A DNA stretch of 37,712 nt, taken from the NCBI GenBank assembly GCA_002862305.1, contig PKCS01000051.1:1-37712 (forward strand), given 5' to 3'. Numbering within the stretch: position 1 is the first letter of the stretch; every line of letters begins with the position of its first letter. Positions 17,508 through 23,024 of this stretch are shown here, piece by piece. A program made the translations under genes and the position numbers. The notes under the pieces were generated by a model. That model did no database searches. It saw nothing but the letters and a program-made list of their open reading frames with translations, and had not been told where the DNA came from. The stretch comes from Phycisphaerae bacterium. Lineage in GTDB: Bacteria > Planctomycetota > Phycisphaerae > Phycisphaerales > SM1A02.

Positions 17508-18452
17508 ATGCCGGTGCTCCAGCGGTCCGTGCAGTGCCACCGATGCGGCTACGAACTCCGGGGGCTGCCCATGGTCGGGGCGTGCCCCGAATGCGGGGCC
17601 TCGATCGAACGGTCGGTCGAGCTGTCCGGCGACGACGCCACGGCCGCCACCAACCTGCGGGACGGACTGCGCTTCGTCCGTGCGGGCTGGGTGACCGCCT
17701 GCCTCCTGCTGCTCGGCTGTTGCGCGGTACCGGTGGTGCTGCTGACCTGTGCGGTGGGCTCCGGGTTCAGGGTCACGGGGTACCTCATGATCGCCCGGAG
17801 CCGAGCGAGGCATCGCTGGGAACAGCTGCCCAGCGCTCTGCCGGTCGTGATCTGCTCCGGCGTGTGCACGGTGGGCCTCGCCGCCAGCCTCGTGCTGAGC
17901 CTCGTGGGAACCGGCCCGGGTACCGGCCCCGGATTCCCCACGGTGCTGGGGCTGACCTGGCTGGCGGTCTGCGTGGAGGGACTGCTGTGGATGTGGTGGC
18001 TGCGATCGACCGGCGAGGTCCTCGGGCACCCGTACCTGGGGGTCGCCGGGGCGCTGACGATGGCGGTGTGGGTGATCGTGGCGGGGACGTGCGGGGTGGT
18101 GGTCGCGAGCACGGGTTCGCGACCGGCGACGGGCCTTGGGGACGGTGTGATCGGCCTGGTGCTGGTGGTTGGCCTCTCGCTGGGGGCCCTGTGCACGGTG
18201 CTGGTGGGCAACCTGCTCTCGGATCTCCTGCGGCAGATCGAATTCGAGCCGGGATCCCGGCGCGCGGACGAGCTCACGATCCGGATGCAGCTCCAGAAGC
18301 AGCTTCGGACTCCACCGGACCCCGGCCGCATCACGCCGGCGGAATCGAGTGGCACCACCATCGTGCCGGAGCGACCGGGGATCAGCGGGACCCCGCGCAG
18401 GCCGGGGAAGCGGGGCGGCGACCCGCCCCGGAACCCGGGTGGGACCTACTGA
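17508..18452 (+). CDS. Zinc-ribbon multi-pass membrane protein
   Basis: A 314-residue protein that starts with a treble-clef/zinc-ribbon, CHRCGYELRGLP then CPECG, four cysteines in CxxC pairs near the N-terminus. About five hydrophobic helices follow (LLLLGCCAVPVVLLT; VVICSGVCTVGLAASLVL; VLGLTWLAVCVEGLLWMWW; GALTMAVWVIVAGTCGV; GLVLVVGLSLGALC), then a polar, Pro/Arg-rich tail. The CGYxLRGLPxxGxCPECG signature recurs in many planctomycete membrane proteins of unknown job. ATG 17508 has GGGAG ten bases before; GTG 17445 (AGGAA, short spacing) and TTG 17430 are alternative starts. It converges on trpE with a 7-base overlap of the two ends (18446-18452). Function unknown. Confidence 0.72.
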   Translation: MPVLQRSVQCHRCGYELRGLPMVGACPECGASIERSVELSGDDATAATNLRDGLRFVRAGWVTACLLLLGCCAVPVVLLTCAVGSGFRVTGYLMIARSRARHRWEQLPSALPVVICSGVCTVGLAASLVLSLVGTGPGTGPGFPTVLGLTWLAVCVEGLLWMWWLRSTGEVLGHPYLGVAGALTMAVWVIVAGTCGVVVASTGSRPATGLGDGVIGLVLVVGLSLGALCTVLVGNLLSDLLRQIEFEPGSRRADELTIRMQLQKQLRTPPDPGRITPAESSGTTIVPERPGISGTPRRPGKRGGDPPRNPGGTY

Positions 18453-20023
18453 CCCCCCCCACTCCGGTCGGTGGTGAAGGTCCGTTCCGCGAGGTCGATC
18501 GCACGGCCCAGCGCGGCCGCCTTGTTGAGGGTCTCCTGGTACTCCGCGTCGGGACGGGAATCGAGCACGATGCCCGCACCAGCCTGCAGGTCGACCACCC
18601 ACTGCCCTGCCTCCGGCCCCGGGGTCACGACCATGGTTCGCAGGGCAAGCGCGAGGTCCGCCCCACCGGCCAGGCCGACCGCCCCGATGCCGCCGGCGTA
18701 GGGTCCTCGTCTCGTGGGCTCGAGCTCGTCGATGATCTGCATCGCCCGGATCTTGGGGGCCCCGCTGACGGTGCCCACCGGGAGCGTGGCCCGGAGGGCG
18801 TCCCACTGGTCGAGTCCCTCCCGCAGGTGGCCGGTGACGGTCGAGGAGATGTGCATCACGTGGCTGTAGCGTTCGACCTCCATGCAGGCGTCGACCGAGA
18901 CCGAGGCGGTGTCGCAGACGCTGCCGACGTCGTTGCGGGCGAGGTCCACCAGCATCACGTGCTCGGCACGCTCCTTGTCGTCGGAAAGAAGCTCGTGCTC
19001 GAGCTGCCGGTCCTCCGCGGCGTCCACCCCGCGCCTGCGGGTGCCGGCAAGGGGTCGGCTGGTCAGGGTGGAGTCCCGGACCCGGCAGAGGATCTCGGGA
19101 CTCGCGGCGACCAGCATGCAGCCCTCCGCCTGGAGGTAGATCTGATACGGACTGGGGTTCACCACCCGCAGCGCTCGGTAGAGGTCGAAGGGATCGACCC
19201 GGGTTCGCCGGCGGAACCGCTGGCTGAGCACCACCTGGAAGGCGTCCCCGGCGCGAATGTACTCCTGGATGCGCTCGACGGAACGCTCGAACTCGCCGGG
19301 GCCGAAGTTCGACTCCACGTCGGCCTCGGTGCGTGCGGCCACGTCCAGGTCCACCAAGCCGGGGGCGAGGTGGACGGTGTCTCCGGTCAGTCGCCCGACC
19401 AGCGACTCCAGGCGATCGGCGGCATCGGCGTAGGCCGCCTCCGCCCCGGCGTGACGCGTGGGGTCGGACAGCACCATGACCTCGATCACCTTGGACACGT
19501 GGTCGAAGACCACCACCTCCTCGTAGAGGCCGAGGTGCATGTCGGGCAGCTCGCGGTCGTCGCGCGGCGCGGAAGCACCGGGGAGCTTCTCCGGTTCCAG
19601 CCAGCGGACCGAGTCGTAGCCGACGTAGCCGACCCAGCCACCGGTGAAGCAGTCGGGGAGCTCCCCGGCCGGCGTCGCCAGCGGGCGATCGGCGGCGAGT
19701 CGGCGGGGAAGCTCCAGTGGATCCTCCTCGACGCTCTCGACCCGGGTCCCCTCGACGTGGTCGATGACCCGGACCGAGCGACCGCGGGCGACGACCTCGA
19801 GCCGCGGCGCGGCACCGAGGATCGAGGTCCGGCCCACCCGGGCCGCCCCACCCCCCTGCTCCACGCTCTCGAAGAGGAAGCTGGGGGCCATGCGGTCGTC
19901 GTCACGCACCAGGTTCCGGTAGGCGAGCACCGGGGTCAGGCGATCGCTCATGAGGGTGCGGCGCAGCACCACCAGCCCGGTGGCCGTCGCCTCCTGGAGG
20001 TATGAATTTCGATCGGTGGCCAT
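18446..20023 (-). CDS. trpE: Anthranilate synthase component I
   Basis: A 525-residue chorismate-using enzyme that makes anthranilate, with ammonia supplied by TrpG. An N-terminal domain contains FLFESVE, the position of the LLES motif that binds tryptophan for feedback inhibition, so the enzyme is probably Trp-sensitive. The catalytic C-terminal half has GDAFQVVLSQRF, RPLAGTRRRG, DLARNDVG, HISSTVTG and PVGTVSGAPKIRAM, the standard order for TrpE/PabB. The FES motif and overall length favour TrpE over PabB, which often lacks the inhibitor site. Start ATG 20023; the open frame continues further upstream but into the divergent ABC gene. No trpG, trpD or trpC is nearby; trpB is about 8 kb away. 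Confidence 0.9.
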   Translation of the reverse strand: MATDRNSYLQEATATGLVVLRRTLMSDRLTPVLAYRNLVRDDDRMAPSFLFESVEQGGGAARVGRTSILGAAPRLEVVARGRSVRVIDHVEGTRVESVEEDPLELPRRLAADRPLATPAGELPDCFTGGWVGYVGYDSVRWLEPEKLPGASAPRDDRELPDMHLGLYEEVVVFDHVSKVIEVMVLSDPTRHAGAEAAYADAADRLESLVGRLTGDTVHLAPGLVDLDVAARTEADVESNFGPGEFERSVERIQEYIRAGDAFQVVLSQRFRRRTRVDPFDLYRALRVVNPSPYQIYLQAEGCMLVAASPEILCRVRDSTLTSRPLAGTRRRGVDAAEDRQLEHELLSDDKERAEHVMLVDLARNDVGSVCDTASVSVDACMEVERYSHVMHISSTVTGHLREGLDQWDALRATLPVGTVSGAPKIRAMQIIDELEPTRRGPYAGGIGAVGLAGGADLALALRTMVVTPGPEAGQWVVDLQAGAGIVLDSRPDAEYQETLNKAAALGRAIDLAERTFTTDRSGGGQ

Positions 20024-20044
20024 GGTTAGAGGATAGGTGAGTCT

Positions 20045-20062
20045 GCCAATCCACGCATTGGC
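20045..20062. promoter_or_regulatory. Inverted repeat between divergent trpE and ABC-ATPase genes
   Basis: GCCAAT and ATTGGC form a perfect 6-bp inverted repeat around a 6-base spacer. It sits 22 bases before the trpE ATG and 15 bases before the ABC-ATPase ATG, in a gap of only 54 bases which must hold both promoters. Position and symmetry suit a dimeric repressor site, but a 6-bp arm can arise by chance and no regulator is identified. Confidence 0.3.
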
Positions 20063-20077
20063 GTCTACAGTATCGCC

Positions 20078-20842
20078 ATGGCAGAAGGTCCCGAACCAGG
20101 TTCGTTCCCCGCGGGTCCCGAGACCTCGGCTCGCCCCGACTCGATCGCGGAGATCCGCGACATCCGGAAGACCTACTACAAGCCGGACGGATCGGTGCTG
20201 GTGGAGGCGCTCAAGGGGGTGGACGTGACCATCCCGCGGGGCCAGTACCTCTCGATCATGGGCGCGTCGGGTTCCGGGAAGTCGACGCTGATGAACATCC
20301 TCGGCTGCCTCGACACCCCCACCAGCGGAATCTACGAACTCGACGGCACCAACGTGGCCGGCCTCGACGACATCTCCCTCAGCAAGGTCCGCGGACGGAA
20401 GATCGGATTCGTCTTCCAGGCGTTCAACCTCATCAGCGAACTGGACATCGTGGAGAACGTCTCGGTACCCCTGCTGTACCAGGGGGTCCCGAGGTCCGAG
20501 CGCAGGAGGCGGGCCCTGCAGGCGCTGGAGGAGGTCGGCCTCGCGGACCGGACCACCCACCGACCGAGGGAACTCTCGGGCGGCCAGCAGCAGCGGGCCG
20601 CGGTGGCGCGTGCGCTGGTCACCAATCCCGCGATCATCCTCGCCGACGAGCCGACCGGGAACCTCGACTCGAAGACCGAGGCCACGCTGCTGGACCTCTT
20701 CGACGAACTCCACGGGACGGGCATGACCCTGATCATCGTCACCCACGAGCAGGGACTCGCGGACCGAAGCGAACGCACCATCACCCTCCGTGACGGTGAG
20801 ATCGAGCGGGACCAGTTCAACCGGTCCGGGGGGGGACGATGA
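20078..20842 (+). CDS. ABC transporter ATP-binding protein, LolD/MacB type
   Basis: A 254-residue ATPase with every functional motif: Walker A GASGSGKST (62-70), Q-loop Gln114 in FVFQAFNLI, signature LSGGQQQR (166-173), Walker B IILADEPT (186-193) and switch His223 in VTHEQ. The 'FVFQAFNLISELDIVENVSVP' and 'DEPTGNLDSKT' phrases are those of the LolD/MacB/FtsE subgroup (type VII ABC), which drives lipoprotein release, peptide efflux or cell-division signalling through a FtsX-like permease. An N-terminal polar extension of about 22 residues is extra. No permease gene is adjacent; ruvC overlaps the stop by four bases (ATGA). The partner permease must lie elsewhere. Confidence 0.87.
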   Translation: MAEGPEPGSFPAGPETSARPDSIAEIRDIRKTYYKPDGSVLVEALKGVDVTIPRGQYLSIMGASGSGKSTLMNILGCLDTPTSGIYELDGTNVAGLDDISLSKVRGRKIGFVFQAFNLISELDIVENVSVPLLYQGVPRSERRRRALQALEEVGLADRTTHRPRELSGGQQQRAAVARALVTNPAIILADEPTGNLDSKTEATLLDLFDELHGTGMTLIIVTHEQGLADRSERTITLRDGEIERDQFNRSGGGR

Positions 20843-21342
20843 TCCTGGTCGGCATCGATCCGGGACTGAACCTCACCGGGTACGCCTGCGTGGAGGTCAC
20901 CACCGGCGACCCCGAACCCCGACTGCTGGAGGCGGGGGTGATCCGCATGACCAGGGGGGAGTCCATGCCCGCGCGCCTCGGGCATCTCTTCGAGCAGCTC
21001 GAGGCGGTGTTCGAGGAGTTCGCGCCCGGCAAGGTCGTGGTGGAGTCGATCTTCAGCCACCGCTCGTTCCAGAAGGCCGGGCTCCTGATGGGACACGCCC
21101 GCGGCGTGGTGCTGCTCGCGGCACAACGACGAGGCGTCGGCACCGCCGAACTCGCGCCCGCCGAGGTCAAGCGTGCCCTGACCGGCAACGGACGGGCGAC
21201 CAAGGCCCAGATGCAGCAGGCGGTGATGGTGCAGTGCGGACTGCCGGAGCCGCCTTCACCGCCGGACGTGGCCGACGCCATCGCGATCGCGCTCTGCGCC
21301 GGACGACGCGAGCATCTCGAGGCCGCACCGGCCGTCGATTGA
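20839..21342 (+). CDS. ruvC: Holliday junction resolvase RuvC
   Basis: A 167-residue endonuclease that cuts Holliday junctions made by RecA and moved by RuvAB. The four metal-binding acidic residues are all present: Asp7 (GIDPG), Glu69 (KVVVES), Asp143 and Asp146 (PPDVADAIAIAL). The MGHARGVVLLAA helix matches the family GQARGV region. Length is normal. It is coupled to the ABC ATPase by an ATGA overlap rather than to ruvA/ruvB. High confidence from motif order. Confidence 0.95.
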   Translation: MILVGIDPGLNLTGYACVEVTTGDPEPRLLEAGVIRMTRGESMPARLGHLFEQLEAVFEEFAPGKVVVESIFSHRSFQKAGLLMGHARGVVLLAAQRRGVGTAELAPAEVKRALTGNGRATKAQMQQAVMVQCGLPEPPSPPDVADAIAIALCAGRREHLEAAPAVD

Positions 21343-21411: not shown

Positions 21412-21447
21412 AAAAAGGCCCGGTCGAGGCGAACCTCAGACCGAGCC
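21412..21447 (-). terminator. Intrinsic terminator, minus strand
   Basis: The stem has two parts. An outer 9-base arm (plus 21417..21425 with 21439..21447) pairs with a single C/A mismatch; an inner GAGG/CCTC pairs around a CGAA (plus) or TTCG (minus) tetraloop, with one bulged base at 21438. On the minus strand the stem is directly followed by TTTTT (plus A-run 21412..21416). On the plus strand no T-run follows, so it is oriented against ruvC and terminates minus-strand transcription. Confidence 0.65.
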
Positions 21448-21495
21448 CTTCCGGGGGTAAGGTAAGGAGTCGGTGCGAATCCGCACCGTCTCGCT
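21412..21495 (-). ncRNA. Candidate small non-coding RNA with own promoter and terminator
   Basis: The 354-base gap 21343..21696 between ruvC and the PTPS gene holds no convincing protein gene. On the minus strand it has, in order: a -35/-10 pair, a first hairpin CGGTGCG-GATT-CGCACCG (21471..21488, 7 perfect pairs), an open, pyrimidine-rich linker (21448..21470, containing CTCCTTACCTTACC), and a strong second hairpin followed by TTTTT. The start is placed about 7 bases after the -10, near 21495, giving about 84 nt. The linker is complementary to GGTAAGGAG-like ribosome sites, so base-pairing with mRNA leaders is one possible job. There is no minus-strand gene just upstream for this terminator to serve: the nearest, the ACT gene, ends at 22560, beyond the plus-strand PTPS gene. 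Promoter strength and function are inferred. Confidence 0.45.
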
Positions 21496-21501
21496 GATTG
21501 A

Positions 21502-21529
21502 ATAATATCCCAATCCATCGTCGAAGCAA
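21502..21529 (-). promoter_or_regulatory. Predicted sigma-70-type promoter for the small RNA
   Basis: On the minus strand the -10 is TATTAT (plus 21502..21507), five of six matches to TATAAT, and the -35 is TTGCTT (plus 21524..21529), which keeps TTG. They are 16 bases apart. The local stretch is A+T-rich in an otherwise very GC-rich window, which makes the -10 stand out. Confidence 0.4.
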
Positions 21530-21696: not shown

Positions 21697-22533
21697 ATGC
21701 AGTACACCCTCAGCAGGACATGCCGGATCATCGTCTCCGACGCCCCCCCGCCCGCGGCCGGGAGCGGAGTGGGGAACAACCACGCCGGCTGGCCGACCCC
21801 GGCCGGCCTCGGGGCGTGGTACGAGATCGACGTCGAACTCGAAGCCGAACCGGATGCGGAGTCCGGCTACATCATCGGGATCCACGTCATCGACAAGGCG
21901 ATCAGGGAAGCCGCGAGGGAACCGCTTCGCGAGGCGCTCTTCGGCCCACAGGACCGGGGGGTCGGCCTCGCCCGGCTCATACGCACCATCAAGGATCGGG
22001 TCGGGGAGACGCTTGGACGCAGGCCGACCACGCTCCGCTTCAAGCTGAGTCCCCGCCACATGATCACCTGGACCTCGGCATCCAACCTCGACAAGGGAGA
22101 CCACATGACCACCGCCACCGACACCCTGCTGGTGACCGAACACTTCGAGTTCGCCGCCTCCCACCGGCTGCACTGCCCGGAACGCTCGGAGGAATGGAAC
22201 CGCAACGAGTTCGGCAAGTGCAACAACCCCCACGGACACGGTCACAACTACAAGGTCGAGGTCACGGTCAGGACCGAGATGACGCCGGAAGGGACCGCCG
22301 CCATGGACTTCTCCCAGCTCGAGGACGTGGTCGAATCCGCGATCATCGGGCGCTTCGACCACCGGTACCTCAACGAGGAGTGCCCGGAGTTCGAGGACAT
22401 GAATCCTTCGGTCGAGAACATCACCCGGACCTGCCGCGACCTGCTGGTGCAGGAGCTGGAGGGGACTCGGGGATCCCTGGAATGGATCACGGTGTGGGAG
22501 ACCGCGAAGACGTCGTGCACCTGCCGGGGGTGA
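21697..22533 (+). CDS. 6-pyruvoyl-tetrahydropterin synthase family protein with tandem T-fold domains
   Basis: A 278-residue protein made of two T-fold-like halves. The C-terminal half (about 145-278) is a complete PTPS: zinc ligands His156 (ASHRL), His181 and His183 (HGHGHNY); catalytic Cys175 in GKCNNPHG; Asp221-His222; and pterin-anchoring Glu268 in VWETAKT. The spacing from Cys to His matches the animal PTPS pattern. The N-terminal half (about 1-130) has the same strand/helix outline (WYEIDVELEAEPDAESGYII, then LRFKLSPRHMITW) but no zinc histidines or Cys, so it is structural or regulatory. An in-frame ATG at 22105, preceded by AAGGGAGA (22093-22100), could give a separate 142-residue PTPS. 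The reaction is formation of 6-pyruvoyl- or 6-carboxy-tetrahydropterin from dihydroneopterin triphosphate; QueD (queuosine) is the alternative role. Confidence 0.85.
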   Translation: MQYTLSRTCRIIVSDAPPPAAGSGVGNNHAGWPTPAGLGAWYEIDVELEAEPDAESGYIIGIHVIDKAIREAAREPLREALFGPQDRGVGLARLIRTIKDRVGETLGRRPTTLRFKLSPRHMITWTSASNLDKGDHMTTATDTLLVTEHFEFAASHRLHCPERSEEWNRNEFGKCNNPHGHGHNYKVEVTVRTEMTPEGTAAMDFSQLEDVVESAIIGRFDHRYLNEECPEFEDMNPSVENITRTCRDLLVQELEGTRGSLEWITVWETAKTSCTCRG

Positions 22534-22559: not shown

Positions 22560-23024
22560 CTAGGTCAGTTCCTCACCCGCCATCAGCCTGAACCCCTTCC
22601 GCCTGAGGATCTGCCCGGCGAAGGTGTGGTCGTCGACCGCGAGGGCCAGCAGCTGCAGGGGACCGGCGGGGTGGGTCGGGAGTATCGGGTAGGCGAACCG
22701 TATGTTCAGTTCCGCCCCGAGCAGGAACAGGCAGGCGCTGGTGAGGGTGTGTTCGTCGTCGAGTTCCATCACCAGCAGCTCGACCTCGGAGAAGCTGAAC
22801 CCGTGCTGCTTGAGGAGGTAGCGAGCGGCGTCGGCGTTGTCGAAGATCATCCTGACCACCGCGTGGTCGGAGGAGTCGAGCACGCTCACCGCCACGAGGG
22901 TGACCTGCGGCGCCTCGTCGAAGAGCTGGACCAGCTCGAGCAACTTCCCCACCCGGTTGTCGAGGAACACCCCGAACTGCCGGACCGAGGGTGGTGCGTA
23001 GCCTTGTTCGGTTCCAAGTGACAC
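22560..23024 (-). CDS. ACT-domain protein
   Basis: A 154-residue protein with two ACT-like beta-alpha-beta units. The first runs about 15-75 (RQFGVFLDNRVGKLLELVQL, then VTLVAVSVLDSSDHAVVRMIF), the second about 80-150 (FSEVELLVMELDDEHT, then LNIRFAYPILP and PLQLLALAVDD). ACT domains bind small ligands, usually amino acids, and regulate enzymes. Stand-alone tandem ACT proteins of this kind occur widely in planctomycetes and other bacteria without a known target. GTG start at 23024. It follows mqnD on the same strand after 72 bases, so it may be cotranscribed. The ligand cannot be told. Confidence 0.8.
   Translation of the reverse strand: MSLGTEQGYAPPSVRQFGVFLDNRVGKLLELVQLFDEAPQVTLVAVSVLDSSDHAVVRMIFDNADAARYLLKQHGFSFSEVELLVMELDDEHTLTSACLFLLGAELNIRFAYPILPTHPAGPLQLLALAVDDHTFAGQILRRKGFRLMAGEELT

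Follow-up and report, generated by a model that had tools for sequence, protein, structure and literature searches.

The window, meaning the whole stretch of 37,712 nucleotides that was analyzed, contains a 354-base gap between the ruvC gene (end at 21342) and the PTPS gene (start at 21697), whose identities are both borne out by Pfam. A candidate small RNA gene is located inside this gap on the minus strand, with the following features:

21524..21529, minus strand: -35-like element TTGCTT, read directly; TTGCTT is retained in the congeneric loci L003-L005; promoter score of 9.3
21502..21507, minus strand: -10 element TATTAT, read directly; TACTAT or TAGTAT at the equivalent position in congeners
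21412..21495, minus strand: small RNA gene of ~84 nt, with a predicted start 7 nt past the -10 element; conserved in most genomes of the family
21471..21488, minus strand: 5' hairpin, a perfect 7 bp with a GAUU loop, from the predicted fold; sequence not conserved
21453..21470, minus strand: single-stranded linker CTCCTTACCTTACC with C5 at its end; C5 is invariant in the alignment and predicted to be unpaired
21449..21457, minus strand: invariant core CCCCCGGAA, from the alignment; the same in divergent orthologues from the covariance-model search
21448..21452, minus strand: GGAAG, predicted to pair with the U-tail (G-U, G-U, A-U, A-U, G-U)
21417..21447, minus strand: terminator stem-loop (long stem), from fold and covariation
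21412..21416, minus strand: U5 tail of the intrinsic terminator, read directly; the stem touches the T-run in 153 members

The coordinates that an earlier, sequence-only reading had given for the promoter, hairpin, linker, stem, U5 tail, and 84-nt length all agree with the sequence. The -35-like and -10 elements are 16 bases apart, and the part of the linker 5' of C5, CUCCUUACCUUA, is genome specific. The region folds with a free energy of -45.9 kcal/mol (z = -4.55), which none of 200 shuffled sequences equaled. That no minus-strand protein gene lies just upstream had also been stated correctly: the nearest one on the right ends at 22560, approximately 1 kb away, leaving the terminator in the window without an upstream gene to serve.

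Orthologues were recovered in 36 of 60 related genomes by a DNA search with the window region, the matches being mostly restricted to the core, with diverging and unrelated flanks. The core pattern is matched in 122 of 201 Phycisphaerales genomes, compared to approximately ten single matches for a reversed control pattern. Most genomes of the window's family carry an orthologue, mostly as one copy in a syntenic place, and relatives occur across the order Phycisphaerales. When 29 orthologues were aligned, CCCCCGGAA was invariant, the lower stem nearly unchanged, and the upper stem marked by compensatory changes. In this alignment, 97% of the stem cells are paired, 46 cells are doubly changed (8.8 in shuffles), and pairing drops clearly once the partners are slid against each other. 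The compensatory changes that the sequence-only reading had suggested looking for among relatives are thus present, with seven stem pairs altered on both sides and none of 500 shuffles as high.

Across 294 genomes sampled from the phylum, the covariance model scores securely only in the order Phycisphaerales. In a scan of named genomes, almost all matches fell in Phycisphaerales or other Planctomycetota assemblies, and core-pattern matches outside the order are mostly stemless and look like chance. In genomes lacking an exact pattern match, the covariance search added orthologues in which CCCCCGGAA is fixed and variation is limited to the tenth base (GGAAA, GGAAC). This tests invariance more fairly than loci gathered by the exact motif, with some bias left, since the motif had served to train the model. 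The tenth base belongs to the stem, as the GGAAC case has a G opposite. Two other origins of the conservation were discarded. A repeat element does not fit the mostly single, syntenic copies in the window's family, and a hidden peptide (frame PPEGLG) is ruled out by fixed third codon positions and by loop lengths that break the frame. Both the core pattern and the covariance model can serve annotation, as they recover members in most genomes of the window's family.

A strict promoter scan of the window returned no promoter. Nevertheless, the -10 and -35 elements of the window are conserved in the three other congeneric species that have the small RNA, and most relatives show TANNNT 16 to 17 nt past the -35 element. 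When -35/-10 pairs upstream of the core were scored, the mean was 9.6 versus 4.2 for shuffled sequences, and a sigma-70-like promoter scoring above 8 precedes 100 of 144 loci (2 of 144 in shuffles). Measured from the core, the -10 ends concentrate at two positions, -16 and about -40. Of the RNAs predicted for the 100 promoter-bearing loci, 41 have 50 to 59 nt, and a longer, broader class spans 70 to 99 nt; the window RNA belongs to the latter. The predicted lengths are thus about 55 nt, or 75 to 95 nt where a 5' hairpin is present. In most RNAs of the long class, the extra 5' part is predicted to fold into a hairpin near the start (45 leaders; mean z of -2.86). A hairpin of this kind is a usual feature of the long form, and its sequence varies from genus to genus. 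Taken together, the conservation, covariation, and promoter results back the earlier proposal of a stand-alone small RNA with a promoter, a 5' hairpin, and an intrinsic terminator. As judged from sequence, positions 21412-21495 (minus strand) almost certainly represent a real small RNA gene, equipped with a promoter and a terminator of its own.

Across the order, the conserved part is the short core and not the stem. Several copies per genome are present in families f5 and f6 and in parts of f2, and paralogues in other families have CCCCCGGAAG in common, in each case running straight into a terminator stem, the stems being unrelated in sequence. A collection of 153 members, which cannot by itself prove the invariance of the core because it was gathered by the exact motif, has the stem between GGAAG and the T-run, abutting both, and comprises 21 stem types with different stem beginnings. 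The same stem criterion applied to 30 permuted seeds yielded no members. At the sequence level, this architecture of a fixed module on exchangeable terminators is unusual. The predicted unpaired probability of C5 is about 0.74 to 0.96 in the 153 members and approximately 1.0 in the window RNA. Roughly ten bases before C5 are also mostly unpaired in the predictions for these members, and their GGAAG is predicted to pair with the U-tail. The core is preceded by a loose pattern, with a pyrimidine at -8, A or C at -6, T at -3 and -2, and G at -1.

Conservation in the single-stranded part falls on CCCCC, with GGAA immediately after it, and not on the linker that had initially been proposed to pair with ribosome sites. 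As an anti-ribosome-site linker, CUCCUUACC is not conserved even inside the genus, and CTCCTTACC, to which the same role was assigned, differs already in congeneric species. Ribosome sites of the GGTAAGGAG type, the supposed targets, occur in just 1 to 2 of 817 gene starts, which were drawn from 1.18 Mb or about 44% of the window's own genome. The suggested search for complementarity in mRNA leaders showed no excess among these gene starts. One start can form ten pairs with the window-specific linker; it belongs to a protein called SecE-like on the basis of its sequence, and as a single case in 817, the match is no evidence. With respect to the core, at least 8 contiguous pairs are possible at 15 of the 817 gene starts, versus 12.6 expected. 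Likewise, the full complement of the core, CTTCCGGGGG, was no more common than a reversed control in four genomes. In the congener G002, it occurs twice, once at the small RNA gene itself.

In the window's family, the small RNA usually has a divergent PTPS gene on one side and, on the other, a same-strand gene for a lipoprotein-like product with a YdjY domain. The latter (NF040466, no Pfam match) is found downstream in L080, L084, and L097 and separates the small RNA from ruvC in most genomes of the family. In L038, L040, L101, and L104, a same-strand terC-like gene, not the usual YdjY neighbor, begins 25 to 31 nt after the small RNA. In the window, convergent ruvC follows 69 nt past the T-run, and L033 and L148 also face ruvC. 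A search of the window genome, run without a positive control, detected no YdjY gene; congeners carry it after the small RNA. The window genome thus keeps the promoter and the small RNA despite having no detected YdjY gene. For paralogues with other stems, the next gene has the same orientation in approximately 7 cases and the opposite one in approximately 9, with no cis bias.

This neighborhood bears on the mode of action. Since the neighbors of the paralogues are unoriented and the window genome retains the RNA without a detected YdjY gene, action in trans is the likelier mode, and these genomic contexts lead us to regard it as probable. Were the RNA instead a cis-acting leader, it would form the attenuated 5' end of the next gene's mRNA, with regulated termination. 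The same-strand gene, mostly of the YdjY type, directly after the terminator at approximately 80 loci would suit such a leader, as would the short distance to terC in the four loci above. We nonetheless consider a leader unlikely, because the small RNA does not always lie upstream of a same-strand gene (the RNAs of the window, L033, and L148 face ruvC), the paralogues lack an orientation bias, and no antiterminator structure was seen to be conserved as an alternative fold. It is highly improbable that the element acts only at the DNA level or as a generic terminator, for example to insulate neighboring genes, without giving a functional RNA. While a stem and T-run come with any intrinsic terminator, the element has its own promoter immediately upstream, conserved unpaired bases, and a covarying stem, and in the window there is no gene to terminate.

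Our best explanation, held with modest confidence, is an order-wide Phycisphaerales small RNA that acts in trans without Hfq or ProQ, its C5 seed pairing with G-rich mRNA sites. Hfq was detected in 0 of 25 genomes and ProQ in 0 of 21, with positive results in the control genomes, so the chaperone expected of an Hfq- or ProQ-dependent small RNA is not seen in these genomes. The molecule would begin with a 5' hairpin in some members, continue as a short single-stranded stretch up to and including C5, and close with a terminator hairpin, its U-tail held by the invariant GGAA(G). The exposed pyrimidine-rich stretch and C5 would serve as the seed, and we deem base pairing through this C-rich seed evenly poised. 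The sealed 3' tail would protect the RNA, as would the 5' hairpin in the long forms, and sealing of the tail may replace Hfq in 3'-end protection. An invariant GGAA half goes beyond what pairing of C5 or of the tail requires, and because neither the seed nor the tail alone explains it, protein binding is the main rival. The RNA would then be a sponge or scaffold, and CCCCCGGAA beside the hairpin would be the site of an order-specific RNA-binding protein. Nine bases stay fixed while the stem, leader, and neighbors change, no complementary partner emerged from the four genomes or the 817 gene starts, and CsrA, a recognizer of GGA, is encoded in 21 of 21 genomes. Yet families f2 and f4, in which the small RNA is rare or absent, encode CsrA as well. 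Known CsrA sponges expose several GGA motifs, whereas this core has one, predicted to be paired. With no candidate protein identified, we consider protein binding possible but doubtful. Equally tentative is the idea that the CCCCCGGAA module on its interchangeable terminators docks to one dedicated partner, either an RNA-binding protein or a universal RNA, as the hub of a small-RNA network that operates without Hfq and ProQ.

The covariance search against Rfam that had been advised gave no known family at the gathering score, and relaxed thresholds, applied like the gathering ones to the window and 20 diverse related loci, assigned no family either. The window RNA shows a weak full-length match to SorY (RF02651; 22 bits; E value of 0.022), a Rhodobacter small RNA that likewise has approximately 84 nt and two hairpins with a linker. 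Set against a gathering score of 111 and 0 of 20 matching related loci, common descent with SorY has a practically negligible probability, and the resemblance lies in the two hairpins and the linker. A literature search on the motif string and on Phycisphaerales small RNAs, with subscription papers and preprints mostly outside its reach, returned nothing relevant. The lack of an Rfam match and of a description in that literature points to a family that is new but belongs to a familiar kind of molecule. For the PVC group as a whole, few small RNAs are on record, with 8 in a published table (PMC9029176).

The closest parallels are RoxS and FsrA of Bacillus subtilis, both Hfq independent. C-rich regions of RoxS have been shown to bind target mRNAs, and a C-rich region of FsrA is proposed to act at ribosome sites, with confirmed pairing to gltAB (PMC8464778). 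Like them, the RNA described here appears to be short and stand-alone and to have a C-rich stretch in single-stranded form. Unlike those two RNAs, to which it shows no sequence similarity (nor would any be anticipated), it has C5 fused to an invariant GGAA for which pairing with the U-tail is predicted, and its siblings swap the terminator stem. Sibling small RNA sets are known from LhrC and Qrr. As in these sets, families f5, f6, and some f2 have several same-seed copies per genome in differing surroundings, but the seed is another one and the window's family usually has a single copy. CsrB and RsmZ, which sequester CsrA, contain GGA, as does the present RNA, and CsrA is encoded in these genomes; in contrast, the conserved core holds one GGA, predicted to be paired. 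As a compact conserved family, these RNAs provide a handle on small RNA action and stability where Hfq and ProQ are undetected.

Many Phycisphaerales genomes (families f1, f2, f3, f4, and f6) contain two CsrA-type genes, one of which is divergent (~50 bits). In addition, CCCCCGGAAGT is repeated many times, dispersed or in tandem (for example as CCCCCGGAAGTGCCCCCGGAAGT), in the genomes G358, G378, G343, G041, and G060 of families f5 and f6. These copies lack a terminator stem, and the repeat has the core sequence in common with the small RNA. Elsewhere in the window, the translation of a minus-strand reading frame (18446-20746) reads as anthranilate/chorismate-binding-like in its C-terminal part. 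The longest version of this frame probably starts too far upstream, because the N-terminal part is antisense to an ABC transporter gene (20078-20842).
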